Assembly (NCBI RefSeq): GCF_003626755.1
Contig: NZ_RBCJ01000004.1
Span: 186,001 to 250,000, forward strand
Reading direction: 5' to 3'
Length of the DNA: 64,000 nucleotides
Source: Ulvibacterium marinum
Lineage (GTDB): Bacteria; Bacteroidota; Bacteroidia; Flavobacteriales; Flavobacteriaceae
The notes beneath the pieces were generated by a model that was not told the origin of the DNA, did no database searches, and was given only the letters and a program-made list of their open reading frames with translations. The first letter of the stretch is position 1. Every line of letters starts with the position of its first letter. This document shows, piece by piece, positions 37,437-49,240 of this stretch. A program made the translations under genes and the position numbers.

Positions 37437-37693
37437 CTGGATACCGAAAAAGGATGTCTTTAACAAAACCGTTGGTAATTAACCCTAATCACCTAAGATC
37501 GCCATAGGGCTTGATAACCAAGGAAAAAGTGTAAATTAGGCTGGATATAAAACTTTTGTCAACATCCAAGAAATCAAAGTTACAAATAGGGTGTTGTAAG
37601 AGCACAGGCTACCATGCCACGCCGAAATGGTTTGTCATGCTGGCATTCGGTAAATTGGAAATCAAGGACACGATTATTATCGTTATTTCAAAA
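37437..37693. other. Non-coding stretch before the ankyrin-propeller gene
   Basis: No supported gene after the terminator at 37406-37436. An in-frame open stretch from 37556 runs into the ankyrin gene but has no signal peptide at its start, so it is treated as upstream sequence. Confidence 0.4.
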
Positions 37694-39076
37694 ATGAACA
37701 ATAAAAAGATACTACTCATACTACTGTTGCTAACAAGCCTTCCTACGATGGCCCAAAATCTATTTAGAACAACATGCCAGGGAAATCTGGATAAATTGGA
37801 TTCACTGCTTGCCCATCAAGACGTTAATCTACAAGATGATAGGGGCAGGTCGTTACTACACTGGGCCCTAGGCTGCAAAAAGAAAGAAGCTTTTGACTTT
37901 CTAATCGAGAAGGGAATTGACATCAACCTGGAGGATAATGAAAAACGCACACCGATGTACGTTGCCGTTAATTTCAATGATGAATATTCTTTTGATCGAC
38001 TTCAAAAACTGCAACCCAATAACTCATGGATCCAAAACTATGGAACGGCACTTTTGGAACGTGCCGTATTAAACAAGGATACACGGTTCGTTGAAAAACT
38101 GGTACGATTAGGTATCGATAGCAACACAAAAAATGAACGCGGAAGCACCCCATTGGAAATAGCAAAACGATTGGGTGCAGATGATATCTATGGATTGTTA
38201 CTGTCCTTAGGTGCCGATGAAAGCGAAGTACGAAGTATTGTAATAAAGGGTGAATATATGGGGCAAAAACCTCCGGGAACCGTACCGAAGTTGTTTGCCC
38301 CGAATTTTATATCGACCGAAGAATCCGAATTTGGTTCTGTTTTTAATACGGAGGGTGCCGAATTTTATTTCGGGGTAGATGTAAACGGAAAAAGTGAGAT
38401 TCGGTATTCCAAAGTGACAAACAATCAATGGAGCAAACCCGAAACCATATTCTCGCACGAGCGATACGGTTACAATGACCCCTTTCTTTCAAATGATGAA
38501 AACAGATTGTACTTTATTTCCAAAAGGGCCTTGGACGGCATAGGGGAACCAAAGGACGTGGACATCTGGTATGCGGAAAAAGAAAAGAAAGGATGGTCGC
38601 AACCCATTAATGCCGGTACGAATATCAACACAAAAGGAAACGAATACTATATTTCCTTTACCAAGGAAGGTTCCCTATATTTTTCATCAAACGGCCACAA
38701 TCCAAACAAAACAGACTACGATATCTATTATTCTAGAAATGTAAATGGTACCTATCAAAAACCGGTTGTATTAAATGACAATATCAATACAGCGGACTAT
38801 GAAGCGGATGTGTTTGTTTCACCGGATGAGTCCTATATCATTTTCTGTTCCACACGCGTAAGTGGATATGGACGCGGCGATCTCTATATAAGTTTTAAAG
38901 ACGAAGATGGCACTTGGACAAAGGCTGTAAATATGGGTGAAGCGATAAACACTAAAAATTATGAATATTGTCCTTTTGTGACCAAGGACGGGAAATATCT
39001 ATTTTACACCAGCAATCAGGATATTTACTGGGTGAGCACTGAAGTGATTCATGAAATCAAAGAAAATAGCAGGTAA
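37694..39076 (+). CDS. Ankyrin-repeat plus PD40 propeller protein, exported
   Basis: A 460-residue protein with a signal peptide (KILLILLLLTSLPTMAQ). Ankyrin repeats cover about residues 25-175 (DDRGRSLLHWALGCKKKEAF, DNEKRTPMYVAVNFN, NERGSTPLEIAKRLGADDIY). PD40 blades follow (FGSVFNTEGAEFYFGV, YNDPFLSNDENRLYFISK, YISFTKEGSLYFSSNG, VFVSPDESYIIFCSTR, CPFVTKDGKYLFYTS). The C-terminal half is like the lipoprotein at 16365. Fusion of ankyrin repeats to a TolB-like propeller is not common and suggests a binding scaffold in the periplasm. Confidence 0.85.
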   Translation: MNNKKILLILLLLTSLPTMAQNLFRTTCQGNLDKLDSLLAHQDVNLQDDRGRSLLHWALGCKKKEAFDFLIEKGIDINLEDNEKRTPMYVAVNFNDEYSFDRLQKLQPNNSWIQNYGTALLERAVLNKDTRFVEKLVRLGIDSNTKNERGSTPLEIAKRLGADDIYGLLLSLGADESEVRSIVIKGEYMGQKPPGTVPKLFAPNFISTEESEFGSVFNTEGAEFYFGVDVNGKSEIRYSKVTNNQWSKPETIFSHERYGYNDPFLSNDENRLYFISKRALDGIGEPKDVDIWYAEKEKKGWSQPINAGTNINTKGNEYYISFTKEGSLYFSSNGHNPNKTDYDIYYSRNVNGTYQKPVVLNDNINTADYEADVFVSPDESYIIFCSTRVSGYGRGDLYISFKDEDGTWTKAVNMGEAINTKNYEYCPFVTKDGKYLFYTSNQDIYWVSTEVIHEIKENSR

Positions 39077-39161
39077 TACTCACAAGGGGCAATCCAGCTT
39101 TTACCCATAATTGCATACAAACAACAATGTAAGTCATTACAGAAACAGGTACGCTAAACAC

Positions 39162-39755
39162 ATGATGAAGAAAAACTATGAAAGCTATCTTAATTCCTAC
39201 CTAAAAAATTTGAGTCATTCCACTCCTCGGGAAATCGATGCTATTAGACCTGATCTTACGATCAAGGAGTATCGCAAACGGGATTTTTTCCTAAAACGAG
39301 GCGACGTCCAAAAGGAAATGGGGTTCATTTCTGTGGGTTTGGTTCGCAGATACTACATTAATGAAAAAGGCAATCAAATAACAACTGGCTTTGCCAAGGA
39401 GAACGAATATCTTACGGACTATCCGGCGTTTATAAAACAGAGGCCGACCAAATACTTTCTGCAATGTATAGAGCCCTCCGTAATCATTGGTGTACCCTAT
39501 AGCATTATTCAGTTAAGCTACGAGAAATTCACGAACGGGCAATTATACGGTCGATTGATGGCCGAACAGACCCTCACGATCCTAAACGATCGCATTGAGG
39601 GCTTTCTATTCAATACCGCAGAAGAAAGGTATTTGAAATTCGTTAAGGAGCATCCGGAATTAATGAATCGCGTAAGCCTTACGCATTTATCTTCCTTCCT
39701 GGGAATTGAAAGGCAATCCTTGAGTAGAATTAGAAAAAGAATTACCAAAAAATGA
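39162..39755 (+). CDS. Crp/Fnr-family transcriptional regulator
   Basis: A 197-residue protein (start ATG 39162 or 39165). The cNMP-type barrel has IKEYRKRDFFLKRGDVQKEM and the C-terminal helix-turn-helix has LTHLSSFLGIERQSLSRIRKR. It closely resembles the other short Crp/Fnr proteins at 8530 and 29430, which lack cysteines for an iron-sulfur centre. The amidohydrolase gene starts 82 nt downstream and may be controlled by it. Confidence 0.88.
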   Translation: MMKKNYESYLNSYLKNLSHSTPREIDAIRPDLTIKEYRKRDFFLKRGDVQKEMGFISVGLVRRYYINEKGNQITTGFAKENEYLTDYPAFIKQRPTKYFLQCIEPSVIIGVPYSIIQLSYEKFTNGQLYGRLMAEQTLTILNDRIEGFLFNTAEERYLKFVKEHPELMNRVSLTHLSSFLGIERQSLSRIRKRITKK

Positions 39756-39837
39756 TTTTGTCACAAAGGTGTCAGGTTTTGGTCAACTTAGAAAACCATC
39801 TTCGCATTATCTTCTTACGTACTTAAAAAGGCATGTT

Positions 39838-41382
39838 ATGAATTGGAAAAAAATATGGAAATACATACTTATGCTGCTAGCCGTAGGATTCGTACTCCTT
39901 TGGTATTTTTCAGAACGCAAAATAAGTAGAATATATGGAGATCTCACAGAGAAAGTCGGCGCTGATAGCTTCCTCCTTGATGCACAGCCTGTCTTGATCA
40001 AAAATATCAGTGTCCTCTCTCAAGATGGAAAACGATTTGTACCCCATCAATCCGTATTGGTAGAAGAAGGCTTAATAGTTTCCATTGACTCAATTATAGA
40101 CGATTCCCCAGACGTAAAAATCATCAACGGAGCAGATAAATTTTTAATCCCCGGCCTTATAGACTCCCACGTGCACTTGTTGAAGAGCCCTAACGACTTA
40201 TTGCTATATATCGCCAATGGGGTTACGGAAATTCGAGAAATGATGGGTGATGAAGTTCATTTGCAATGGAGACGAGAGATTGAGCAAGGGAAACGGATCG
40301 GGCCGGACATGTACATTGCCTCACCAAGAATAGGGAGCTTTGGAAAGGTTGAGGGCTGGTTTATGAATTGGACCCAAGGATTTGAATCGGTCAAGAATGA
40401 AAAAGAGGCAAAGCGGCTTGTTGAGGAGATGGCAGAAAAGGGTTATGATGGCATTAAGATTTATTCTCAATTAAATGCGGACGGTTACAAGTCTATAAAC
40501 GAGCTCGCACCAAAAAGCGATCTGGATGTTATAGGCCATATTCCGTTTAGTGTGGACCTTGAGGACTTTTTAATGTCCAACCAAGAGGAAGTAGCCCACT
40601 TGGAAGAACTCATGAAACCGATACTGTGGGAAAATGGGGGGTTTGATGGCATAAAGAACCAAACAGACGCCAATGATTTTCTAGCCGCTGTGGACAAAAA
40701 GACCAAGGAACTTGCGCCAGGGTTGGCTGAAAAAGATATCGTCGTAACCACTACCCTTTGGCTTATGGAAAGCTTTGTAAAACAAAAATTCAGTATAGAC
40801 CAGATCTTAAGCGAAGTAGAACTGACCTATGTAAATCCCGGTTTAAGTGAGTGGGACGAAAATATACCCGGCCTGGGATGGTTACCGACCGTGAATCGGT
40901 ATCGAATCTTAGATGTCGAAACCTTTACTCCCTCCCAGTTGGAGCGAATAAAAATCTTTTGGGCAGCTTATGCCGAGGCATGCAGGATTACACTACGTAA
41001 CCTAAATGAAAACGGCGTAAGAATACTGGCCGGAACCGATGCAAATGTACCTTGTGCGGTACCGGGCTTTTCGCTACATGACGAATTAGTAAGTTTAAGG
41101 GACGCGGGAATGTCCCCCGCCGAAGTACTGCAATCCGTTACAAGCACACCAGGGGAATGGCTAGGTAAAAATACCGGTATACTTAAGCAGGGGGCCAAGG
41201 CCAACCTGATTATACTGGATAAGAATCCCCTGATGGACATCGCCAACACCCGAAGCATAAACTCGGTTATGGTCAATGGGCGGTATTATAAAAAATCGGT
41301 ACTAAACGATATGCTCAATGCTGTCAAAAACAACAACGAAGCAAGCAGGACGGTAGATATTACAAAATACACGAAAGAATAA
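39838..41382 (+). CDS. Membrane-anchored amidohydrolase
   Basis: A 514-residue protein with an N-terminal membrane segment (about residues 8-26) and an amidohydrolase TIM barrel. The metal-binding H-x-H is in LIPGLIDSHVHLLKS, the distal His is in DLDVIGHIPFSVD, and the barrel-end Asp is in RILAGTDANVPCAVPG. TPGEWLGKNTGILKQGAKAN and LIILDKNPL are the usual C-terminal composite domain. It is of the imidazolonepropionase/prolidase-like class; the amide or ester cleaved is unknown. ATG at 39838 is used as the membrane segment follows. Confidence 0.88.
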   Translation: MNWKKIWKYILMLLAVGFVLLWYFSERKISRIYGDLTEKVGADSFLLDAQPVLIKNISVLSQDGKRFVPHQSVLVEEGLIVSIDSIIDDSPDVKIINGADKFLIPGLIDSHVHLLKSPNDLLLYIANGVTEIREMMGDEVHLQWRREIEQGKRIGPDMYIASPRIGSFGKVEGWFMNWTQGFESVKNEKEAKRLVEEMAEKGYDGIKIYSQLNADGYKSINELAPKSDLDVIGHIPFSVDLEDFLMSNQEEVAHLEELMKPILWENGGFDGIKNQTDANDFLAAVDKKTKELAPGLAEKDIVVTTTLWLMESFVKQKFSIDQILSEVELTYVNPGLSEWDENIPGLGWLPTVNRYRILDVETFTPSQLERIKIFWAAYAEACRITLRNLNENGVRILAGTDANVPCAVPGFSLHDELVSLRDAGMSPAEVLQSVTSTPGEWLGKNTGILKQGAKANLIILDKNPLMDIANTRSINSVMVNGRYYKKSVLNDMLNAVKNNNEASRTVDITKYTKE

Positions 41383-41414
41383 TCTAGGGTACATTAAGGC
41401 ACATGATGAATTAA

Positions 41415-41445
41415 TAGCCGGATTTCCAACGAGAAATTCCGGCTA
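41415..41445. terminator. Hairpin after the amidohydrolase gene
   Basis: TAGCCGG (41415-41421) pairs with CCGGCTA (41439-41445), and the inner ATTTC pairs with GAAAT with one bulged T. The stem is strong but no T-run follows on the + strand. It may end amidohydrolase transcription or act as a processing stem. Confidence 0.45.
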
Positions 41446-41498
41446 TCAGTTATCTTTACAAAGGCTTTAAAACCGGCCGACATTTTTCCAGAAACCAA

Positions 41499-41966
41499 AT
41501 GAAGTCTTCAATTCAGCTCGCCAATCGGTTCAGGGAAGTAATTCTGAACGGAAAATGGATTGCAAATACAAACGTACAAGATCAACTCCGTAATGTCACC
41601 TTGGAACAGGCCGTGACCGAGATTGACAACTTGAATACTATTGCCAAACTAACATTTCACTTAAACTATTATATTTCCGGGGTATTGAACGTATTTGAAG
41701 GAGGTAATCTGGAAATTCGGGATAAATTTAGTTTTGACCTCCCAAAAATGAATTCGGAACAGGAATGGAGCGACCTTACCACTAATCTTTTTTCAAATGC
41801 GGAAAAATTTGCAAACCATGTTGAACATATGTCGGAAGAAAAACTCAATGCGGAATTTGTGAATACGGACTATGGTGATTTTCGAAGAAACATTGAAGGT
41901 ATGATCGAACACTCTTACTATCATCTGGGGCAAATTGTATTGTTAAGGAAAATGCTTGACCAATAA
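41499..41966 (+). CDS. DinB-like / DUF1572 four-helix protein
   Basis: A 155-residue helical protein of the DinB/YfiT superfamily. His in LTFHLNYYISGVLN and paired His in MIEHSYYHLGQIVLLRK (H-x-x-x-H) sit at the positions of the family's metal ligands. Such proteins bind a divalent metal and may act as thiol-dependent transferases. It appears to be a single-gene unit. The integron-like cassette array begins about 150 nt downstream, so this is the left chromosomal neighbour of the array. Confidence 0.8.
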   Translation: MKSSIQLANRFREVILNGKWIANTNVQDQLRNVTLEQAVTEIDNLNTIAKLTFHLNYYISGVLNVFEGGNLEIRDKFSFDLPKMNSEQEWSDLTTNLFSNAEKFANHVEHMSEEKLNAEFVNTDYGDFRRNIEGMIEHSYYHLGQIVLLRKMLDQ

Positions 41967-42090
41967 AATGCTGCACACGGCAAAGTGTATACCTAATTGT
42001 GCCTAAACTGCCGAAATCTATACCCGCGTGGCAAGAACCTCGTTCAAAGGGATCCAAAATCTCTTATCTTAGTTCTGCATATAAAAGAAA

Positions 42091-42112
42091 TAAACGTACC
42101 TAGGTACGTTTA
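42091..42112. repeat. 22-nt perfect palindrome at the left edge of the cassette array
   Basis: Half-site TAAACGTACCT (42091-42101) is followed by its exact reverse complement (42102-42112). The inner word TAGGTACGTT (42101-42110) also occurs at 4433-4442, at the left edge of the Doc cassette. The first cassette's start box begins 8 nt further on (42120). It may be an operator or part of an attI/attC-like entry site. Confidence 0.5.
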
Positions 42113-42153
42113 TACAATTGTTATGTGTAATTGAGGAAAAGCCGATAAACCAA

Positions 42154-42507
42154 ATGAATAAACCCAAGATAGAAAACCGTCAATTAAAAAATGATTTTTT
42201 GGACGAACACATCTTTGTTGGTCTAAAAAACCTGAATGATGGATTTGACACTGAATCAATTAAATATTTTTCGGAATCAGACTTTCGTATTGTACTAGAA
42301 CGTGTTGAAAAATTTGGATTGGGAATTTATGGCATTGAACCTTGGCAAAATGGAACTTATTATGACGTGTATGGTTTTGAAGATTATGCGAAAACTCCAA
42401 CAGATTCGAGATGGTATAATACAGCATTTGACGACTTTATTGCATCAGGTGAAGAGCTTCTTTATACAGCAACTTATCATATGCCAAAATATGATGATCA
42501 ATTATGA
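42154..42507 (+). CDS. Cassette 1, first gene: protein of unknown function
   Basis: A 117-residue acidic protein with no signal peptide or membrane segment (MNKPKIENRQLKNDFLDEHI; WQNGTYYDVYGFEDYAKTP). I recognise no family. ATG at 42154 is chosen, 34 nt after the cassette start box; an in-frame TTG at 42118 overlaps the box and would be implausible. The stop overlaps the next start as ATGA (42504-42507), so the two proteins are made together and probably work together. The gene is more AT-rich than the neighbouring chromosomal genes. Confidence 0.75.
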   Translation: MNKPKIENRQLKNDFLDEHIFVGLKNLNDGFDTESIKYFSESDFRIVLERVEKFGLGIYGIEPWQNGTYYDVYGFEDYAKTPTDSRWYNTAFDDFIASGEELLYTATYHMPKYDDQL

Positions 42508-42812
42508 AAGAATTATGGTGTTGGAGATGTAAAATGACGGTTCCCATGCTTGATAAAGACGAGTTTGAGATTGCGAAGAAATTATATAACCAAGGATTTA
42601 AAACCAACGGAATCAATATAAAAGAAAGATTTAAACCCTTGCTAGATTATTATACCGGATTGACTGGGTTTGATGAAACCGTGCCAAACGCTATAATGCA
42701 TCATGCTATTCATCAATACGGACCACCATGCGGAAAATGTGGTAAACCATATAGAACGCCAAAAGCATCATACTGTCCAGCTTGTGGGAACAAACGAAAA
42801 GAAAACACATAA
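42504..42812 (+). CDS. Cassette 1, second gene: zinc-ribbon protein
   Basis: A 102-residue protein with two or three CxxC pairs: WCWRC near the start (residues 6-9), then CGKCGKPYRTPKASYCPACG near the C-terminus (two CxxC knuckles about 16 residues apart), a classic zinc ribbon. The middle is helical. It could bind nucleic acid or a protein. Its TAA (42810-42812) lies inside the right box of the cassette (42805-42813), so the gene and the recombination site share bases. Confidence 0.78.
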   Translation: MKELWCWRCKMTVPMLDKDEFEIAKKLYNQGFKTNGINIKERFKPLLDYYTGLTGFDETVPNAIMHHAIHQYGPPCGKCGKPYRTPKASYCPACGNKRKENT

Positions 42813-42876
42813 CACTGTATATGAAATCATAGCACCCTGCGGTATGCTACGCTTCATATACTGACCGTTGTAGCAC
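42805..42876 (+). repeat. attC-like site between cassettes 1 and 2
   Basis: Right box ACACATAAC (42805-42813) and next start box GTTGTAGCAC (42867-42876). GTATATGAA (42817-42825) pairs perfectly with TTCATATAC (42853-42861), and TAGCA (42830-42834) with TGCTA (42845-42849). The two outer boxes pair only at AAC/GTT, because each matches its own cassette instead. Confidence 0.75.
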
Positions 42877-42952
42877 ATTAAAAGAATGAGGCAATCGGTG
42901 GAAGTTAAAAACCTAATAACAAAAATATTTTTAACGTGTTCAGATACATGGG

Positions 42953-43576
42953 ATGAATAAAAGGGCTTTTAAAATTGTTGGACTTTATTTAGTTGGCTTA
43001 ATCTGTATTTTCTGCCATTACTTGATGAACAATAACAACATAATAAATGTACTCTTTCAAAAAACGAATAGATTTCCTCAAGATGGATTTGTAGTACTTC
43101 TTGTTGCAGGATTATTTCAATACGGATTATTAACAGTGGGAATATCCATAATCGCAATTCTGAGTTTTTTCTTAATCAAAAAAAGGAAAACACCTAAAAA
43201 ATATAAAAACAAACATGGAAATGAAATTATTGAAGAAGGACATGAATCTTATATGATTCCTGACGAATATTTGAAAACTGGAGCTTCATATAAAATATTT
43301 CTATGGAATAACACAGACAAAATTGTAACTATCAAAGATAAATTTACCTTGAGGCCAAATGAAGATAAAGTATTCCAGTTTGTAGATACAGACTCTATTT
43401 CATTTGACATAGGACCAAAAATTTATTTCGGAGAATTTGGACTTGAAATCAGCGACAAAAAAAGCCAAATAGCTGGAATTGGAGGAGAGTATTGGGAAAA
43501 GTATAACGTTCCAAATAATGTGGAATACGGATTTGTGATAGTACCACCAGGTGAAGGTGATATTGCTACTAAATAA
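42953..43576 (+). CDS. Cassette 2: two-helix membrane protein of unknown function
   Basis: A 207-residue protein with two membrane segments (about residues 7-25 and 45-73), then a soluble, probably beta-rich domain (YMIPDEYLKTGASYKIFLWN, KDKFTLRPNEDKVFQF). No family is recognised. The gene fills the cassette except for about 85 nt upstream, where a promoter could lie, and it ends 3 nt before the right box at 43580. It is visibly AT-richer than chromosomal neighbours. Confidence 0.72.
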   Translation: MNKRAFKIVGLYLVGLICIFCHYLMNNNNIINVLFQKTNRFPQDGFVVLLVAGLFQYGLLTVGISIIAILSFFLIKKRKTPKKYKNKHGNEIIEEGHESYMIPDEYLKTGASYKIFLWNNTDKIVTIKDKFTLRPNEDKVFQFVDTDSISFDIGPKIYFGEFGLEISDKKSQIAGIGGEYWEKYNVPNNVEYGFVIVPPGEGDIATK

Positions 43577-43579
43577 AAC

Positions 43580-43695
43580 GTGCTACAACAATGGCTATAA
43601 CCCATGCCTATCGCTTGGCCATTTTTTCCTAACTTGAATGTAATAAAAAACGTCCGGCGCTGGCCACGGGGCCATAGCCGGGACCGTTGTGCATA
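43580..43695 (+). repeat. attC-like site between cassettes 2 and 3
   Basis: Right box GTGCTACAAC (43580-43589), continuing AATGGCTAT, and the next start box GTTGTGCATA (43686-43695), preceded by ATAGCCGGGACC. GGCTAT and ATAGCC pair, and GGCC words occur near both inner ends. 116 nt in total. Confidence 0.75.
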
Positions 43696-43706
43696 ATTGA
43701 AGAAAA

Positions 43707-44360
43707 ATGTGGTTCCAAAAGAAAATTAAACCCGAAAAAATAAAGGATAGGAATACAAAGCAATTGCGTTCGAACGGAATTGAGGTAATTGAACATTTAC
43801 CTTATTTGGACAATCCTGAGTTTAGAGAACCAGAAGAAATAGCTCGTAGAACAATGGTTCTAACTGCATTATTTCAGTTACACCTTCAAGCACCAAGAGA
43901 CATAATCAAAAAGTATCTTGAGGAAAATAGACTTATAGACTATTTGAACGAAGAAGAATTGGAATATTTGGAAACGGAATATTCGGAATTACCTGAACAG
44001 AATCAAATAGACATTTATTGGTATGTAGAAGCCATTTGGACTTTTGCTTGGATTGGCGGATTTCACAATAATCTGACTTTAAATACTGGCGTGGAAGATT
44101 CACTTGCTTCGTTGATTCCGAACATTGCGAAAAATGAATCAGCCGAAAAATTCATATCTGAATTCAAATTGAGAAATCAAGTAGAAATATTTGAAATGTT
44201 GGATAAGTTCTATCGTGCTCATTGGTTCGCTCGAAATAACAATTTGACTGGAAAACAAACGGATAAAGTTGATTTGGACATAATAATGGAAAGAAGAAAA
44301 GCATTGGAATATACAGTTTACAAAGAATTTGACTGGAATGAAATTTCACTTGACACGTAA
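43707..44360 (+). CDS. Cassette 3: DUF4272-like protein
   Basis: A 217-residue soluble protein matching DUF4272 as I know it: RNTKQLRSNGIEVIEHLPYL at the start, EIARRTMVLTALFQLHLQAP, and the W-x-x-E-x-x-W-x-x-x-W-x-x-G core in IYWYVEAIWTFAWIGGFHNN. Late helices (LDKFYRAHWFARNNN) also fit. The domain has no known function; it turns up in scattered bacterial genes, some near toxin or immunity loci. It starts 12 nt after the cassette's start box, so there is no room for a separate promoter; transcription must come from upstream. Confidence 0.8.
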   Translation: MWFQKKIKPEKIKDRNTKQLRSNGIEVIEHLPYLDNPEFREPEEIARRTMVLTALFQLHLQAPRDIIKKYLEENRLIDYLNEEELEYLETEYSELPEQNQIDIYWYVEAIWTFAWIGGFHNNLTLNTGVEDSLASLIPNIAKNESAEKFISEFKLRNQVEIFEMLDKFYRAHWFARNNNLTGKQTDKVDLDIIMERRKALEYTVYKEFDWNEISLDT

Positions 44361-44368
44361 AAAACAAC

Positions 44369-44506
44369 TATGCACAACAATGTATAACCGCAATTACGGC
44401 GGATTCGACTACGTCCGAATCCACTCGGAATTGCTAAAGTCTGTGCTAAACCGAAAATTAAAGCATATTAACCCGTAACTGATGGTTATACGAGACCGTT
44501 ACCACC
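44369..44506 (+). repeat. attC-like site between cassettes 3 and 4
   Basis: Right box TATGCACAAC (44369-44378), continuing AATGTATAACC, and the next start box GTTACCACC (44498-44506), preceded by GGTTATACGAGACC. GTATAACC and GGTTATAC pair perfectly, and CAATT/AATTG provide an inner pair. 138 nt in total. Confidence 0.75.
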
Positions 44507-44517
44507 AATTGGAAAAA

Positions 44518-45309
44518 ATGAAGAAGCTAACAAAACTTTCACTTCTGATACTAACCATATCACTTCTTACAAGCTGCGATTTCATTAATAACGCTTTTAC
44601 TTACAAAGACACTACTGAGGGGTTTGTAGAAGCTCTGATAGAAGAAGATTATGAAAAAAGCTTAACCTATATGGCAACCGAACACGATGGATTCAAAAAC
44701 ACAAATCTTGACACTCTGAAAGTGGGTTTAGCAAATTTCCGTCAACTAATTGTAAAAAATTTTGGAATTGAATTGGACTACAAGTTTATGACCGCGAATA
44801 AGACTTTTTCAACGGTCGAAGGAGAAAGTACACCTCCTAATACAACTAAAGCCCAAATCGAATTCTCTAACGACACAGAGTTCGGAGTTTTCGAAATAAT
44901 TTTTGACGACAATTCAAATAAGATATACAACATCCAAACTCTTGATATAAAAGAACCAATTCCGAATATGATGATATTTTGGCTATTTGGAATATTAGCT
45001 ATTTGTGTACCTGTCTTCAATATTTGGATAATTAGAAAAATAAAAAAAAGTGATCTAAAGAAAAAGTGGTTGAAATATATTGCTGTCATTTGCCTTAATG
45101 TACCCGCTATAACTTATAGTGCTGTAAATGGACTTTCATTTAGCCTATTGAGTTTTCAAATCCTATTGGGTATTAGTTTTAGTTATATGGGCTACCTGAG
45201 TTCAGCTTGGACCTTTGGAATACCATTAGGTGGTATATATTGGTTATGGAAACTTAGCACGAGAACAGTTGACAAGGAAGATGTAGAAAATGAAATTTTA
45301 ACTGAATAA
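44518..45309 (+). CDS. Cassette 4: membrane lipoprotein of unknown function
   Basis: A 263-residue protein with a lipoprotein signal (ISLLTSC, Cys20), a soluble domain (about 25-135; GFVEALIEEDYEKSLTYMAT is NTF2- or DUF4878-like) and then three or four membrane segments from about residue 141 to 245. The combination of a lipid anchor and a multi-helix tail is unusual. ATG at 44518 lies 11 nt after the start box; an in-frame ATG upstream (44482) lies inside the site and is rejected. It ends 5 nt before its right box. Confidence 0.72.
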   Translation: MKKLTKLSLLILTISLLTSCDFINNAFTYKDTTEGFVEALIEEDYEKSLTYMATEHDGFKNTNLDTLKVGLANFRQLIVKNFGIELDYKFMTANKTFSTVEGESTPPNTTKAQIEFSNDTEFGVFEIIFDDNSNKIYNIQTLDIKEPIPNMMIFWLFGILAICVPVFNIWIIRKIKKSDLKKKWLKYIAVICLNVPAITYSAVNGLSFSLLSFQILLGISFSYMGYLSSAWTFGIPLGGIYWLWKLSTRTVDKEDVENEILTE

Positions 45310-45314
45310 AAAAA

Positions 45315-45471
45315 GGTGGTAACACTGTATATAGCAAATAAGGCGTTCGGTGGTTTGCGAAAGTTCAGTGCTATTTACTAACACCGCCAAATCGTTGATT
45401 TGGCTCAGTACAAACTTGAAAGGATATCGCTTTTTTCAGCCCTACTTGCCATATACTAATCGTTAGCAATA
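45315..45471 (+). repeat. attC-like site between cassettes 4 and 5
   Basis: Right box GGTGGTAAC (45315-45323), continuing ACTGTATATAGCAA, and the next start box GTTAGCAATA (45462-45471), preceded by TTGCCATATACTAATC. GTATAT and ATATAC pair, with TTGC opposite GCAA. Inside lies the hairpin GCCAAATC-GTT-GATTTGGC (45386-45404), shared with the next site. 157 nt in total. Confidence 0.75.
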
Positions 45472-45488
45472 ATTATGAAAAAGAAATT

Positions 45489-46286
45489 GTGACTAAGGAA
45501 AAACCTCTGTTTCGGACTATATTTCTTGCTTCAGTTATTCTACTGCTGATTAATGACCTTTACCTTAAATACGAGTATCATAACTTTTTTACTGGGAAAC
45601 TATCCGATTTCGCCGGACTATTTGCCTTCCCTTATTTTTTTAGTTGTTTCTTTTCAAAAAGGATAAAATCTATTTACATTTTTAGCGGAATTTTGTTCAT
45701 AATCTGGAAATCGGAATATTCACAGCCGTTTTTTGATTTTGCTCACTCATACGGAATTGGGATTGACCGAACAGTTGATTATACGGACTTAGTTTCTCTA
45801 CTAATTTTACCAATTTCATATGCATACTGGAATTCAGAATTTAGACAATTGATTCAACCAAAAAAGATTCTCAAACCATTCATAATCGGTATTTGCTGTT
45901 TTGCATTTATAGCGACTTCGGTTCCAAATAAAGAAGGAGCTCTTAATTTAAAATCCAATTATCGAGTTGAATTAAAATCCGATTTAAAAAAAGCTCGGGC
46001 TGCTGGACTTATATATTACTCTTTGGAAAATGACAAGTATATTTCAATGTTAAGGATTCCTGAGAAAAATGCAGAAATTGAATTGTCTTTAATGGTTAAA
46101 GAAAAAGAGAAAGGTATTTTGAGCATCAAACTTGATAGTATTCTTAACTACTATGTTGAAGGGAGTACATTCATTTTCTCGGGCGGTGTTGACGAAGATG
46201 ATGTGAATTTCGTAAAACAAATGACCTTGGAAGACTTTGAAAAACTGTTTGTGGAACAAAAGATTAAGCCACTTATGGAAAAATAA
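45489..46286 (+). CDS. Cassette 5: multi-pass membrane protein of unknown function
   Basis: A 265-residue protein with five hydrophobic segments (about residues 8-25, 40-57, 62-77, 102-118, 132-148) and a C-terminal soluble domain of about 110 residues. HNFFTGKLSDFAGLFAFPYF is a motif I have met in hypothetical membrane proteins; the function is unknown. The best start is GTG at 45489, since no in-frame ATG lies upstream. A five-codon frame (ATG 45475) ends in TGA overlapping this GTG, so start by coupling is possible. It ends 1 nt before the right box. Confidence 0.7.
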   Translation: MTKEKPLFRTIFLASVILLLINDLYLKYEYHNFFTGKLSDFAGLFAFPYFFSCFFSKRIKSIYIFSGILFIIWKSEYSQPFFDFAHSYGIGIDRTVDYTDLVSLLILPISYAYWNSEFRQLIQPKKILKPFIIGICCFAFIATSVPNKEGALNLKSNYRVELKSDLKKARAAGLIYYSLENDKYISMLRIPEKNAEIELSLMVKEKEKGILSIKLDSILNYYVEGSTFIFSGGVDEDDVNFVKQMTLEDFEKLFVEQKIKPLMEK

Positions 46287-46287
46287 C

Positions 46288-46488
46288 TATTGCTAACAAT
46301 ACCTATAAATAATACGGGCTTAGCTACTTAAGTTATAAACCCGGAATATCAACGAACACCGCCAAATCTTTTGGATTTGGCATTAAATAAACAAAGAAAA
46401 AGCAAAACAAAAGGGTTTGGCTATTTGTCTGGCGGAAAGTAAACGCCAGTTTGCCCCCGTACTGTTCATAGCTCTACCGTTGTAGGTA
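46288..46488 (+). repeat. attC-like site between cassettes 5 and 6
   Basis: Right box TATTGCTAAC (46288-46297), continuing AATACCTATAAATAATACGGGC, and the next start box GTTGTAGGTA (46479-46488), preceded by GCCCCCGTACTGTTCATAGC. The outer arms pair imperfectly (CTATnAAnAnTACGGGC against its complement). An inner hairpin GCCAAATC...GATTTGGC (46361-46381) is shared with the preceding site, preceded in both by AACACC. At 201 nt it is the longest site. Confidence 0.75.
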
Positions 46489-46497
46489 ATTAAATAA

Positions 46498-47511
46498 ATG
46501 AATAAAATAGTATACTTATTTGGAGCAGGTGCAAGCAGAAATGCTTTGCCAATAGTTGATGAAATTCCTGATAGAATTCAAGAACTGATTGAATTGCTTA
46601 AATCAGACGATTTGCAACTATCTAACAAAGACAAATATGATGATTTAACATCTAATGCTCCTGAAAGTAAAAGCCACTACCAATTAGAATTGATAAAGAA
46701 TCTTGAATGGCTATTAACTGAAAGCTCTAATCATGCAAGCGTTGACACATTTGCGAAAAAATTAACGATTAAAGGAAATCGTAAGGAACTTGAAAAGTTG
46801 AAAGTTGCTTTATCAATATTCTTTGTATTTCAACAGGCACTGAATAAACCCGACAAGAGGTATGACACTTTTTTTGCTTCGATTCACAATAGTTTATATC
46901 GCTTCCCAGACAACTTAAGGATACTTTCGTGGAACTACGACTATCAATTTGAACTTTCGTATTCGGAGTATTCAAGTCAACAAGATGTATCATCTAATCA
47001 AAGTTCACTAAATGTTAAACATAAATATGGAGATAATGATACAGATGAAAGATTTGGGATTTATAAATTAAACGGAACGACTGGACTTTATTCTGATGGT
47101 GGTTGGCGACAATATATGTTTGCTCCTAACCTCAAAGTTCCAGTAGATTTATCTTTCGTTGATCGAGTGGTGAGAAACTTTACAGCTGTAACATACTTTG
47201 GGAATCTATACTCTAACTTTTCTTTTGCTTGGGAAAGAGAAAATCCAGATAAAAGCATAGTTGACTTGGCTATTAAAAACACCGAGGATTGTTTAGCATT
47301 GGTAATAATTGGCTACTCATTTCCATTCTTCAATCGAGATATTGACAGGAAGATTATTGGGGCAATGAAAAATCTTAAATCGGTTTACTTCCAGGCACCT
47401 GACGCTGACGTTCTTATAGAAAGATTCAAGGCTATTAAAGACAATACAAGTGAAATCAATTTGATACCTAAATATGATACAGGACAATTTGTTTTACCAA
47501 ATGAATTATAA
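46498..47511 (+). CDS. Cassette 6: SIR2-like protein, possible anti-phage NADase
   Basis: A 337-residue protein with the SIR2/Rossmann hallmarks in order: YLFGAGASRNALP at the start (G-A-G-A-S, residues 9-13), SWNYDYQFEL near residue 144 (the T/S-x-N-Y-D motif of SIR2-like proteins), KLNGTTGLY near 190 (usually K-L-H-G), and VIIGYSFPFFNRDID near 272 (G-Y-S). The zinc-binding cysteines of classical sirtuins are absent, as in bacterial defence SIR2 proteins that destroy NAD+ on phage infection. Asn replacing the catalytic His in KLNG is notable and could mean altered activity. It ends 5 nt before its right box. Confidence 0.78.
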   Translation: MNKIVYLFGAGASRNALPIVDEIPDRIQELIELLKSDDLQLSNKDKYDDLTSNAPESKSHYQLELIKNLEWLLTESSNHASVDTFAKKLTIKGNRKELEKLKVALSIFFVFQQALNKPDKRYDTFFASIHNSLYRFPDNLRILSWNYDYQFELSYSEYSSQQDVSSNQSSLNVKHKYGDNDTDERFGIYKLNGTTGLYSDGGWRQYMFAPNLKVPVDLSFVDRVVRNFTAVTYFGNLYSNFSFAWERENPDKSIVDLAIKNTEDCLALVIIGYSFPFFNRDIDRKIIGAMKNLKSVYFQAPDADVLIERFKAIKDNTSEINLIPKYDTGQFVLPNEL

Positions 47512-47516
47512 AAAAC

Positions 47517-47734
47517 TACCTACAACAATGGCTCCTATGAACAGCCCTGGTCCAGTCCTTTAAACCTGCCTACGGCAAGCAGGCTATGTGTAATCCGCCC
47601 TTTTTGGGGTTCACCAGCATCAGTATGATCATACGTTATAAAAACTTGGCCACTTGCTATAAACATGTTGTCCGTCTCCTTTACGGGGCCACAAACGTTG
47701 TTTTGTGATACGGTTCTTGCCGGAATTGTGGGGT
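47517..47734 (+). repeat. Right end of the array: attC left half and non-coding tail
   Basis: Right box TACCTACAAC (47517-47526), continuing AATGGCTCCTATGAACAG as in the other sites. The expected partner arm and a new GTT start box are not found before the convergent SDR gene; nearby GTT words (e.g. 47697) lack the arm. The array therefore ends here with a site whose right half is lost or diverged. No gene is supported in this stretch. Confidence 0.5.
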
Positions 47735-48619
47735 TCAACAGTTTTTAGTACATCGGCGCTCAATCACCTTGTTTCCCTTGAAATGAATAGTAAGGTCAAA
47801 TCTGGATTTTAGCCTGCGCCACCTACGCATAGGATGATTTTTTATGATATAGTGTCCCAATCCCGGAGCAATTCTATTGATGGACAACAAATACACCTCA
47901 AACTTACCAACTGCAATTTGCTTTCTTTTCTTTTGCAATCCTTTGATAATATCCTGGGCACATTCAGCAGGCGTCATACCCAAGCGATGGGAGGTCTCTA
48001 CCTTACCATAGGGGGTTCCATCACCACATAGTCCCTTGGCCGTTATAGCTGTATTGATAAAGCCCGGGAGGATAAAACTGACATTGAGCTTACAACCCAT
48101 GTGCTCCGCCTTTAAGGATTCGAAAAAACCATGTAGCGCATGTTTTGAAGCCGAGTAGGCCGATCTTCCGGGGATGCCCATGACACCGGCAAAACTCGAA
48201 ACAATTCCAAACCCACCATAGCCTTGTTGCAAATACATGGGCATGATTGCCTTGGTCAAAGCTACCGTACCGAAATAGTTGGTTTCCATAACCTTACGAT
48301 CTACATCCAGTTCAGTTTCAATGACCAATCCTTTTTGGGCAATACCGGCATTATGGAGGACCAAATCCAAGCGACCCAGTTGCCGAACCTGCGCCACTGA
48401 TTTTTGGATAGATTGCGAATCTGTAATGTCCAAGGGAAGTACCATAAAATTTTGAAGATCAGCACACTTCTCCCTTAACTCGATTAATTTTTCCGTCCTT
48501 CTTGCTGAGGCAATTACGGTTGCTCCCAAGTTGTTCAATTGCATGGCCAAAGATGCACCGATACCAGAGGAAGCCCCCGTAATCCATATCACCTTGCCCT
48601 TGAAATTCATTTTTCTCAT
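47735..48619 (-). CDS. Short-chain dehydrogenase/reductase
   Basis: A 294-residue classical SDR. The cofactor motif is TGASSGIGASLAMQ (T-G-x-x-x-G-x-G), the N-A-G motif is in LVLHNAGIAQKG, and the catalytic Ser, Tyr and Lys are in GIVSSFAGVMG and SAYSASKHALHGF. It is longer than the 250-residue norm because of a basic C-terminal extension, as in the DhrS7-like/YqjQ group. Starts at 48619 (MRKM) and 48610 (MNFK) are both possible. The substrate is unknown. It converges with the cassette array. Confidence 0.9.
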   Translation of the reverse strand: MRKMNFKGKVIWITGASSGIGASLAMQLNNLGATVIASARRTEKLIELREKCADLQNFMVLPLDITDSQSIQKSVAQVRQLGRLDLVLHNAGIAQKGLVIETELDVDRKVMETNYFGTVALTKAIMPMYLQQGYGGFGIVSSFAGVMGIPGRSAYSASKHALHGFFESLKAEHMGCKLNVSFILPGFINTAITAKGLCGDGTPYGKVETSHRLGMTPAECAQDIIKGLQKKRKQIAVGKFEVYLLSINRIAPGLGHYIIKNHPMRRWRRLKSRFDLTIHFKGNKVIERRCTKNC

Positions 48620-48970
48620 AAACCTAAATTTTAGTAAGGAAACTCGATTATAAATTGTTGAACCAAACCTATCCGAAAAAAATAGGTTGGATGTCCGAAA
48701 TCCCGTATCCTAGATAAATCCGGACACCTTTTATGTTACTATAGAAGAAGGACTACCTAATATTGTGGAAAGGAAAGGTCCGTGCCGTACACCTGTTTCA
48801 GCGTCTTATTTTTTAGAGTTGAATCGGGTATGCCGAAACGGTACCGTCGGACCCTTTGGGAAAGCTGTGCATACCATTGGCTCTAAGTACATAGAATAGA
48901 CTTATAAAAGGTCTCCAGATAGGAGGTCTTTGGTCGGTGATCGAGAAAGGATTTGCGAACGTATATCCTT
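48620..48970. other. Non-coding stretch upstream of the SDR gene
   Basis: Holds the promoter of the leftward SDR gene near its left end. I see no gene; a 70-codon frame on the minus strand at 48813-49025 runs through the hairpin repeat and is not supported. Confidence 0.4.
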
Positions 48971-49182
48971 CAATGCTCCGCTTTGAAAATAGTTCAAACA
49001 AAAAATGCTCAAGCATGCTTGGCATTTTTTCTTGTCGAACTATTCATTCGTGACCGCGGAGGGATTATCTTCGATTTTCCCAACAACGCTCCGCGTTGAA
49101 AATCAAAAAGCCGCAATTACAAATTCAAGCAAACTTGTTTTGCCATACGACTTTTTGATTCATTCGTGACCGCGGAGGGATT
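48971..49182. repeat. Tandem hairpin repeats containing copies of the tRNA-Arg 3' end
   Basis: Two units of about 97 nt lie in tandem. Each begins CAAYGCTCCGC-K-TTGAAAAT (48971-48990 and 49084-49103; two differences in 20), continues with a hairpin, and ends in an identical 25-nt segment (49042-49066 and 49158-49182) whose last 16 bases (TGACCGCGGAGGGATT) are the 3' end of the tRNA-Arg gene in the right-hand copy. The left hairpin (AGTTC...GAACT, with AAAAAATGC...GCATTTTTT inside) and the right hairpin (AATCAAAAAG...CTTTTTGATT, 49101-49160) differ in sequence. Confidence 0.75.
48991..49041. terminator. Strong hairpin with A/T tracts, likely terminator
   Basis: Outer arms AGTTC/GAACT (48991-48995, 49037-49041), inner arms AAAAAATGC (49000-49008) and GCATTTTTT (49022-49030), and a central CAAGC-AT-GCTTG stem. 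A-run and T-run border the inner stem, so it can work as a terminator in either direction, most plausibly for the leftward tRNA-Arg transcript. Confidence 0.6.
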
Positions 49183-49240
49183 CAAACCCCCAACCCTCAG
49201 AGCCGAAATCTGATGCGCTATTCAGTTGCGCCACGCGGCC
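49167..49240 (-). tRNA. tRNA-Arg (anticodon TCG)
   Basis: Read on the minus strand it starts GGCCGCGTGGCGCAACTGAA and ends with GGTTTGAATCCC and CGCGGTCA. Acceptor arms GGCCGCG and CGCGGTC pair over 7 bp (one G-T pair), the anticodon stem TCAGA/TCTGA encloses the loop TTTCGGC with anticodon TCG, and the T-loop holds TTTGAAT. The length is 74 nt with discriminator A; CCA is not encoded. A copy of its 3' end lies 116 nt further downstream at 49051-49066. Confidence 0.93.

Follow-up and report, generated by a model that had tools for sequence, protein, structure and literature searches.

The cassette array and its surroundings

The stretch analysed here, referred to as the window, comprises 64,000 nucleotides of the Ulvibacterium marinum genome (Flavobacteriaceae; contig NZ_RBCJ01000004.1, positions 186,001 to 250,000) and carries a tandem array of six gene cassettes separated by hairpin sequences. 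An initial annotation made from the letters alone had placed this integron-like array at 42121..47526 and had described six consecutive units, each beginning with a box of GTT plus 6–7 nt and ending with its exact reverse complement. An exact search recovered six such abutting pairs, leaving the array end at 47526 unchanged and shifting its start to 42120, one base before the position given earlier. As also described there, all genes share one orientation, i.e., the seven main open reading frames (ORFs) of the units read one way. The units, in window coordinates, are:

42120..42813, + strand: cassette unit 1, boxes GTTATGTGT / ACACATAAC; ORFs 42154-42507 and 42504-42812
42867..43589, + strand: cassette unit 2, boxes GTTGTAGCAC / GTGCTACAAC; ORF 42953-43576, no Pfam family above cut-off
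43686..44378, + strand: cassette unit 3, boxes GTTGTGCATA / TATGCACAAC; ORF 43707-44360, DUF4272 (Pfam, E 4.8e-33)
44498..45323, + strand: cassette unit 4, boxes GTTACCACC / GGTGGTAAC; ORF 44521-45309
45462..46297, + strand: cassette unit 5, boxes GTTAGCAATA / TATTGCTAAC; ORF 45489-46286, GTG start
46479..47526, + strand: cassette unit 6, boxes GTTGTAGGTA / TACCTACAAC; ORF 46498-47511

All six units end on AACA. In five of the six, ACC or ATC stands directly before the start; unit 1, located at an attI-like site, has ATT there. The boxes had been called private to each cassette, which is valid for neighbours only, since the non-neighbouring units 2 and 6 both carry GTTGTAG. Likewise, the statement that six matches of this length cannot be chance holds for their tandem arrangement and not for the pairs as such: the window contains 12 GTT 9-mer pairs versus 10.5 expected (50 Markov sequences), and the 5.8 kb array stretch contains 6 versus 1.08 expected, with a maximum of also 6 among 300 Markov sequences. 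As single pairs are this frequent by chance, box pairs alone constitute weak evidence. The tandem chain of 6, in contrast, was not reached in simulated sequences of 64 kb, where the longest chain under loose rules was 4 (2 of 300 Markov sequences).

Regarding the cassette contents, the first ORF of unit 1 (42154-42507) has 59–60% identical homologues within cassettes of G019 and L150 (uncultured Lutibacter), and for the other six cassette proteins no homologues were detected in the stretches fetched from relatives at E 1e-8. The second ORF of unit 1 (42504-42812) features a weak zinc-ribbon-like end. The protein encoded in unit 6 (46498-47511) is weakly SIR2-like (PADLOC Aga_SIR2, E 1.2e-5) and could possibly represent a defence gene.

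Directly ahead of the first cassette, two further features were found:

42007..42072, + strand: fossil of an integrase C-terminus, 22 codons in one frame (TAEIYTRVARTSFKGIQNLLS-stop), with the active-site tyrosine codon at 42019-42021
42090..42119, + strand: attI-like primary site, palindrome ATAAACGTACCTAGGTACGTTTAT plus a 6-nt spacer, followed by the GTT of cassette 1

The fossil qualifies the earlier statement that no integrase lies in the window. The region around it (41991-42092) shares 79% DNA identity over 102 bp with the congener G002 (E 2.5e-18), in which a longer broken integrase copy precedes an attI-like palindrome of other letters. A second congener, G001, features a short integrase remnant and an attI-like palindrome, again of other letters, as well as a full-length integrase match on another contig (C9). 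In the window's own genome, an integrase profile search revealed no array-type integrase, and the search for intI proposed in the initial annotation yielded matches that were all below the cut-off.

The congeners further allowed the comparison of cassette content, as had been suggested. The array flanks are 94% (37615-41967) and 89% (47510-48737) identical to G002, which has a different set of cassettes at this position and a further array behind an SDR gene; in G001, the array is located after the SDR gene. In a blastn comparison of the array interior with the congeners, only site stretches were matched and no cassette gene; both congeners carry other cassettes behind their homologous integrase remnant and attI-like site. 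In G002 (L099 9460-11764 and 13509-15101), the two arrays flank one SDR gene and similar array-end sequence follows both. This may reflect a duplication or translocation, which could explain why the window array lies on the opposite SDR side from that of G001. A tRNA-Arg gene (tcg) is found at 49166-49240, one gene past the array end.

The palindrome-spacer layout also precedes the first cassette in G011, G036, L108, and L112, and other arrays show just an ATATA-like stretch ahead of GTT and no palindrome. Furthermore, five attI-like palindromes, each before a different box, were observed in one contig region of G021 (C13), suggesting several insertion points or a mobile attI. These copies are located at:

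L084: 153, 2251, 5485
L069: 18196
L023: 2149

Structure and inheritance of the hairpin sites

A blastn search with the spacer behind unit 3 (site 3 below) matched 25 of 60 genomes, the own genome included, with near-full-length matches of up to 97% identity; against plasmid and phage collections, the same site gave no match. Many of the genomic matches begin at query positions 6-9 (AAC at 8-10) and stop at 130-133 (GTT at 130-132), excluding the private boxes. A unit finder applied to 20 stretches from 15 genomes, the window included, detected 23 chains of at least three units in 11 of the 15 genomes, comprising 154 units and 131 sites. The longest chain consists of 39 units over 44 kb (G016), and 112 of the 131 sites measure 120–128 nt from AAC to GTT. 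As a unit is recognised only by an exact 9-mer box pair, an A or G behind GTT, and AACA, degenerate units are missed; neighbours with the same box may be merged into one unit and shorter chains are dropped.

For structural analysis, 48 non-redundant sites (out of 112 of 119–129 nt) were aligned as bottom strands. Their inner helix comprises 16 pairs, of which 13 show pair-keeping changes on both sides. With the three AAC/GTT pairs included, 97.6% of 907 cells are paired, compared to 26–51% in slid structures, and the covariation score of 0.477 (0.124 in shuffles) was not reached by any of 500 shuffles. At two positions, 40 and 46 of the 48 sites have a G.T wobble on the bottom strand, corresponding to an A.C mismatch on the top strand. 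Of 127 sites folded with DNA parameters (4 of the 131 being excluded for length), 121 had the bottom strand as the more stable one (mean 3.75 kcal/mol), although the sites are related and the counts not independent; among cassette-interior stretches used as control, 37 of 131 showed this preference. Covariation and the computed bottom-strand preference in the site family support the annotated folding of the spacers as hairpins. An inner-helix bulge (alignment columns 22 and 138) is absent from 34 of the 48 sites, lies in column 22 in 12, and in column 138 in 2. The box consensus RYYYAAC/GTTRRRY fits 11 of the 154 boxes, the finder itself having required A or G at position 4, and GTTRRRY, checked by eye, fits none of the six window boxes.

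A covariance model with 19 pairs and 125 positions, designated R1, was trained on the 48 sites, one of which (site 3) stems from the window. In the window, R1 detected the five internal sites and nothing else up to E = 1. The sites are:

42811..42869, - strand (the bottom strand folds): attC-like site 1, R1 36.9 bits, E 5.4e-6
43587..43688, - strand: attC-like site 2, R1 45.5 bits, E 6.9e-8
44376..44500, - strand: attC-like site 3, R1 78.1 bits (site in training set); blastn matches in 24 of 59 relatives
45321..45464, - strand: attC-like site 4, R1 46.7 bits, E 3.7e-8
46295..46481, - strand: attC-like site 5, R1 31.0 bits, E 1.1e-4
47524..47762, + strand: eroded terminal half-site and array end, missed by R1; similar sequence behind both G002 arrays

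The rest of the genome contributed 11 more R1 matches, which are scattered and mostly eroded, with intact unit ends at one of them and none at the others. With a hairpin behind every unit, the spacers might in principle also act as terminators or as RNA elements within an operon-like cluster whose boxes arose coincidentally. Such an origin is, however, exceedingly unlikely: the sites are kept across genera and the genes are not, the better-folding strand is the non-coding one, and an Rfam scan of the window returned only a tRNA at gathering score and no attC family.

Repeated cassettes revealed how the sites travel. Both flanking sites were measurable in 27 of 37 pairs of repeated cassettes (at least 70% of the query covered); the downstream sites were on average 98.6% identical, compared to 71.4% for the upstream sites, and the downstream value was the higher one in all 27 pairs. 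In 12 pairs that were inspected, identity on the upstream side reaches 1–8 bases before GTT. On the downstream side, it extends to GTT or one base further in six pairs, ends within the site in four, and ends after CCGT in two pairs located at an array tail. Since the array-tail site reads CCG-TCAG and the inner copy CCG-TTGG, the border is placed inside GTT, i.e., between G and TT or between GT and T. One cassette of 1560 bp occurs as an identical copy in each of two arrays that lie about 560 kb from each other. Judged by sequence, this inheritance of the downstream site is the signature of attC-type cassettes.

The same data bear on the option that the units are small transposons, or hairpin elements resembling IS200/IS605, which have terminal inverted repeats and inserted independently next to one another. 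Short inverted ends of each unit and hairpins between the units would fit such elements. Repeated units, however, bring a site on their 3' side only, the seven main ORFs point in the same direction, and none of these seven cassette ORFs matches a Pfam transposase. In addition, ends that are private to each unit would be unusable by an end-reading transposase, so that we regard this origin as very unlikely.

Integrases adjacent to related arrays

Among the fetched stretches, those of G011, G036, G016, G008, G031, and G027 have a tyrosine recombinase at or close to an array start; in G016, the recombinase sits by the smaller of two arrays. All five array integrases scanned, from five of these six genomes, contain PF00589, and their best NCBIfam match is NF040815 with 223.4, 215.2, 214, 185.3, and 181.8 bits (the last being a partial ORF), one of the five thus exceeding the curated cut-off of 220. 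The IntI model TIGR02249 scores them at 173–207 bits, below its cut-off of 265, and its match is split into two stretches. The distance from the KDR to the HxLRH motif is 58 or 59 in the first six array integrases analysed and 100 in the IntI of G602, with L118 (43) and L119 (124) as outliers among other rows; the IntI insertion is present in the four IntI sequences examined. For one query compared by sequence with solved structures, the XerA-like 4a8e was the best match, followed by IntI4 (2a3v), which aligned in two pieces flanking its insertion. In a recombinase tree of 99 rows, a branch with a support of 90/86 has the 28 labelled array integrases on the same side; the five IntI lie at a second branch (100/100) and the eight Xer at yet another (100/99), with 58 rows unlabelled.

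At least 80 named integrase loci were obtained from public genomes. Among the 80 listed, 18 contain R1 sites (E <= 0.01) and eight contain chains of at least three units, compared to none of 80 Markov controls. The chain-bearing loci listed belong to Flavobacteriaceae bacterium S0862, Seonamhaeicola aphaedonensis, Arundinibacter roseus, Flavobacterium aciduliphilum, Algibacter onchidii, Ichthyenterobacterium magnum, an uncultured Lutibacter, and Bacteroidetes bacterium GWF2_41_31; among those listed from outside Bacteroidota, no chains of at least three units were detected. In 16 of the 18 R1-bearing loci among those listed, the integrase is followed by the cassettes on its own strand; L144 and L148 are divergent. 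In the six stretches fetched first, integrase and cassettes share one direction in four and diverge in the rest.

The tree also contains a clade of related recombinases (L153, L154, L157, L162, L163, L165, L167, L168, L170, L173-L177, L179, L181, L183, L184, and L187), mostly from Pseudomonadota, whose loci are devoid of chains of the array type. Likewise, recombinases of L136, L137, and L149 (Deltaproteobacteria, Undinarchaeales, and a Spirochaetia metagenome-assembled genome) are positioned near the array integrases in the tree, and the stretches examined there contain no arrays.

Classical IntI genes occur in the phylum as well. Above the cut-off, the IntI model matched 5 of 26 genomes (all 26 having been chosen for R1 matches). 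These five are from other classes of the phylum, and four of them (G346, G357, G384, and G602) also contain split, insertion-less matches elsewhere in the genome. In the five classical-IntI stretches, R1 found one weak site (34.7 bits). At 12 clearly insertion-less places, it found strong sites at eight, a weak one at G346 (which has strong R1 sites outside the stretches fetched), and none at G602, G382, and G599; G427, whose matches are fragments, was excluded from this comparison and has a strong R1 site. Among eight of these places that have sites, integrase and cassettes read in the same direction in four and are divergent in the other four.

The classical IntI array of G346 comprises six units with boxes of 10–13 nt and a different site, in which, by eye, an extra inner-helix base is kept in 5/5 cases and one of six boxes fits GTTRRRY. 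As this classical array is also mostly off the consensus, box consensus is a weak test, and long private boxes and failure of GTTRRRY, initially considered as marks of a separate system, were largely dropped since G346 shows both. A classical IntI array with private boxes of 10–13 nt is located at L218 12783-17520, in another class of the phylum. The textbook length of an integron box is seven.

With respect to distribution, R1 matched 265 of 299 genomes of the window's family at E 0.001, with at most 11 candidates scored per genome. Across the phylum, 89 of 296 genomes were matched at 1e-6, i.e., 19 from the window's family, 1 from its order, 11 from its class, and 58 from other classes. Outside Bacteroidota none of 30 genomes was matched, which is a soft control given their, by judgement, mostly higher G+C content. 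The integrase profile matched 195 of the 299 family genomes at 1e-55, some of which may not be array integrases. IntI above the cut-off was found in none of the 299, with only 7 candidates scored in many of them; the matches of this model in 5 of the 26 genomes served as its positive control.

These results bear on whether the window is an ordinary cluster of attC sites lacking an integron integrase (CALIN), composed of classical cassettes moved by an IntI located elsewhere. Cassette logic and general site plan are alike in both cases, and the phylum does contain classical IntI genes, in other classes, together with a classical array that has long private boxes as well. We nevertheless consider an ordinary CALIN unlikely. 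IntI above the cut-off was found neither in the own genome nor, among the candidates scored, in the family genomes, yet it is present in other classes; R1 sites accompany most of the insertion-less places, compared to a single weak one in the classical stretches; and the extra inner-helix base kept by the G346 sites is lacking in most of the present ones. Related integrases without the IntI insertion, taken together with a majority of sites without an inner-helix bulge, thus argue that the system is not of the classical kind.

A probable integron-type system and its place among known ones

Taken together, the region very probably represents an integron-type cassette array that has lost its integrase and belongs to a Bacteroidota integron lineage distinct from the IntI class. 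The integron-type cassette logic assumed in the initial annotation is borne out by the cassette differences between congeners, the inheritance of the 3' site, the covariation of the hairpins, and the integrases located by the arrays of relatives. As far as sequence comparison can tell, the system works like an integron and falls outside the IntI class by its integrase, which was assessed on relatives.

Several observations weigh against this interpretation. Without an array-type integrase in its own genome, the window array is probably inert, and its terminal site is eroded. Site inheritance draws on 5 cassette families from 2 genomes, 31 of the 37 repeated pairs representing one family in G016, and in 1 of the 27 measurable pairs the upstream sites are also 99% alike. 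The branch uniting the array integrases has a support of only 90/86. Finally, integrases and sites are paired by adjacency only: 62 of the 80 integrase loci listed are without an R1 site (many being short contigs or from other phyla), as are 3 of the 12 insertion-less places, with 1 more showing a weak site.

As the most likely mechanism, we infer that the insertion-less recombinase acts on the folded bottom strand, cutting it between G and TT. As in classical integrons, circular cassettes would be inserted at the attI-like site and cassettes would be excised between two sites. The choice of the strand could be guided by the two near-invariant G.T wobbles together with an asymmetric spacer (mostly 6 and 3 nt), which would replace the classical extrahelical base.

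More generally, we consider it likely that a second integron class, with a XerA/IntI-like integrase free of the insertion and a hairpin site marked by wobbles, is the normal means of gene capture of Flavobacteriaceae and much of Bacteroidota, and coexists with classical integrons in some genomes. It would have been overlooked because search tools target IntI and classical attC sites, and the enzyme's loss of the insertion and the site's loss of the extrahelical base would represent one co-evolved change in hairpin recognition.

The system shares with classical integrons the one-way tandem cassettes, inverted AAC/GTT boxes, and better-folding bottom strand (described in part in sections of PMC9024848 and PMC8946536), as well as large arrays (39 units in G016), an integrase by the first cassette, and the occurrence of arrays without integrase. 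It differs in its integrase, which lacks the IntI insertion and scores below the IntI cut-off, and in its sites, 34 of 48 of which have no inner-helix bulge and instead two near-invariant G.T wobbles. Unlike in the classical divergent layout, many of the present integrases read in the direction of the cassettes, although some are divergent. The former arrangement is also found in the reverse-oriented integrons of Treponema, whose integrase gene points in cassette direction; their IntI is, however, a normal one, unlike here. Like a CALIN, the window is a cluster of sites without integrase, but CALINs are defined by classical attC models, as at least two such sites with no intI close by, and the related integrase here is not IntI. 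XerA-type recombinases (NF040815; PDB 4a8e, 5hxy) resemble the array integrases most, providing the best NCBIfam match and, with 4a8e, the best structure match. XerA acts in chromosome dimer resolution at dif, and, to our knowledge, it is not known for cassette arrays.

In passages of PMC8138268 dealing with an "integron-like" subgroup of tyrosine recombinases, the IntI insertion is called essential for integron function, and cassette arrays are not tied there to insertion-less members. Two points speak against full novelty, namely that the insertion is incompletely conserved in this subgroup according to the same passages (PMC8138268), and that the NCBI name of NF040815, "site-specific tyrosine recombinase/integron integrase", shows the enzyme family to be already loosely so labelled. 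Integrons were described as rare in Bacteroidetes: IntegronFinder 2.0 initially yielded nothing but cassette-less integrases there, followed by a single complete integron, that of Salinibacter, apart from the ones in Chlorobi and Ignavibacteriae (sections of PMC9024848); the review PMC8618304 lists Bacteroidota among the phyla with integrons. In the titles and abstracts listed by searches of the open PMC literature, a scope to which subscription papers and preprints do not belong, no report of such Flavobacteriaceae arrays was found.

A cassette system without the IntI insertion would allow a direct test of the claimed essentiality of this insertion, as worded in the passages of PMC8138268, and offers a natural counterpart for studies of strand choice in folded DNA. 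The presence of such sites in 265 of the 299 genomes analysed from one family would redraw the map of integrons in Bacteroidetes, with probably thousands of cassettes still unread. For the Flavobacteriaceae, a major route of gene exchange may thus have been overlooked.

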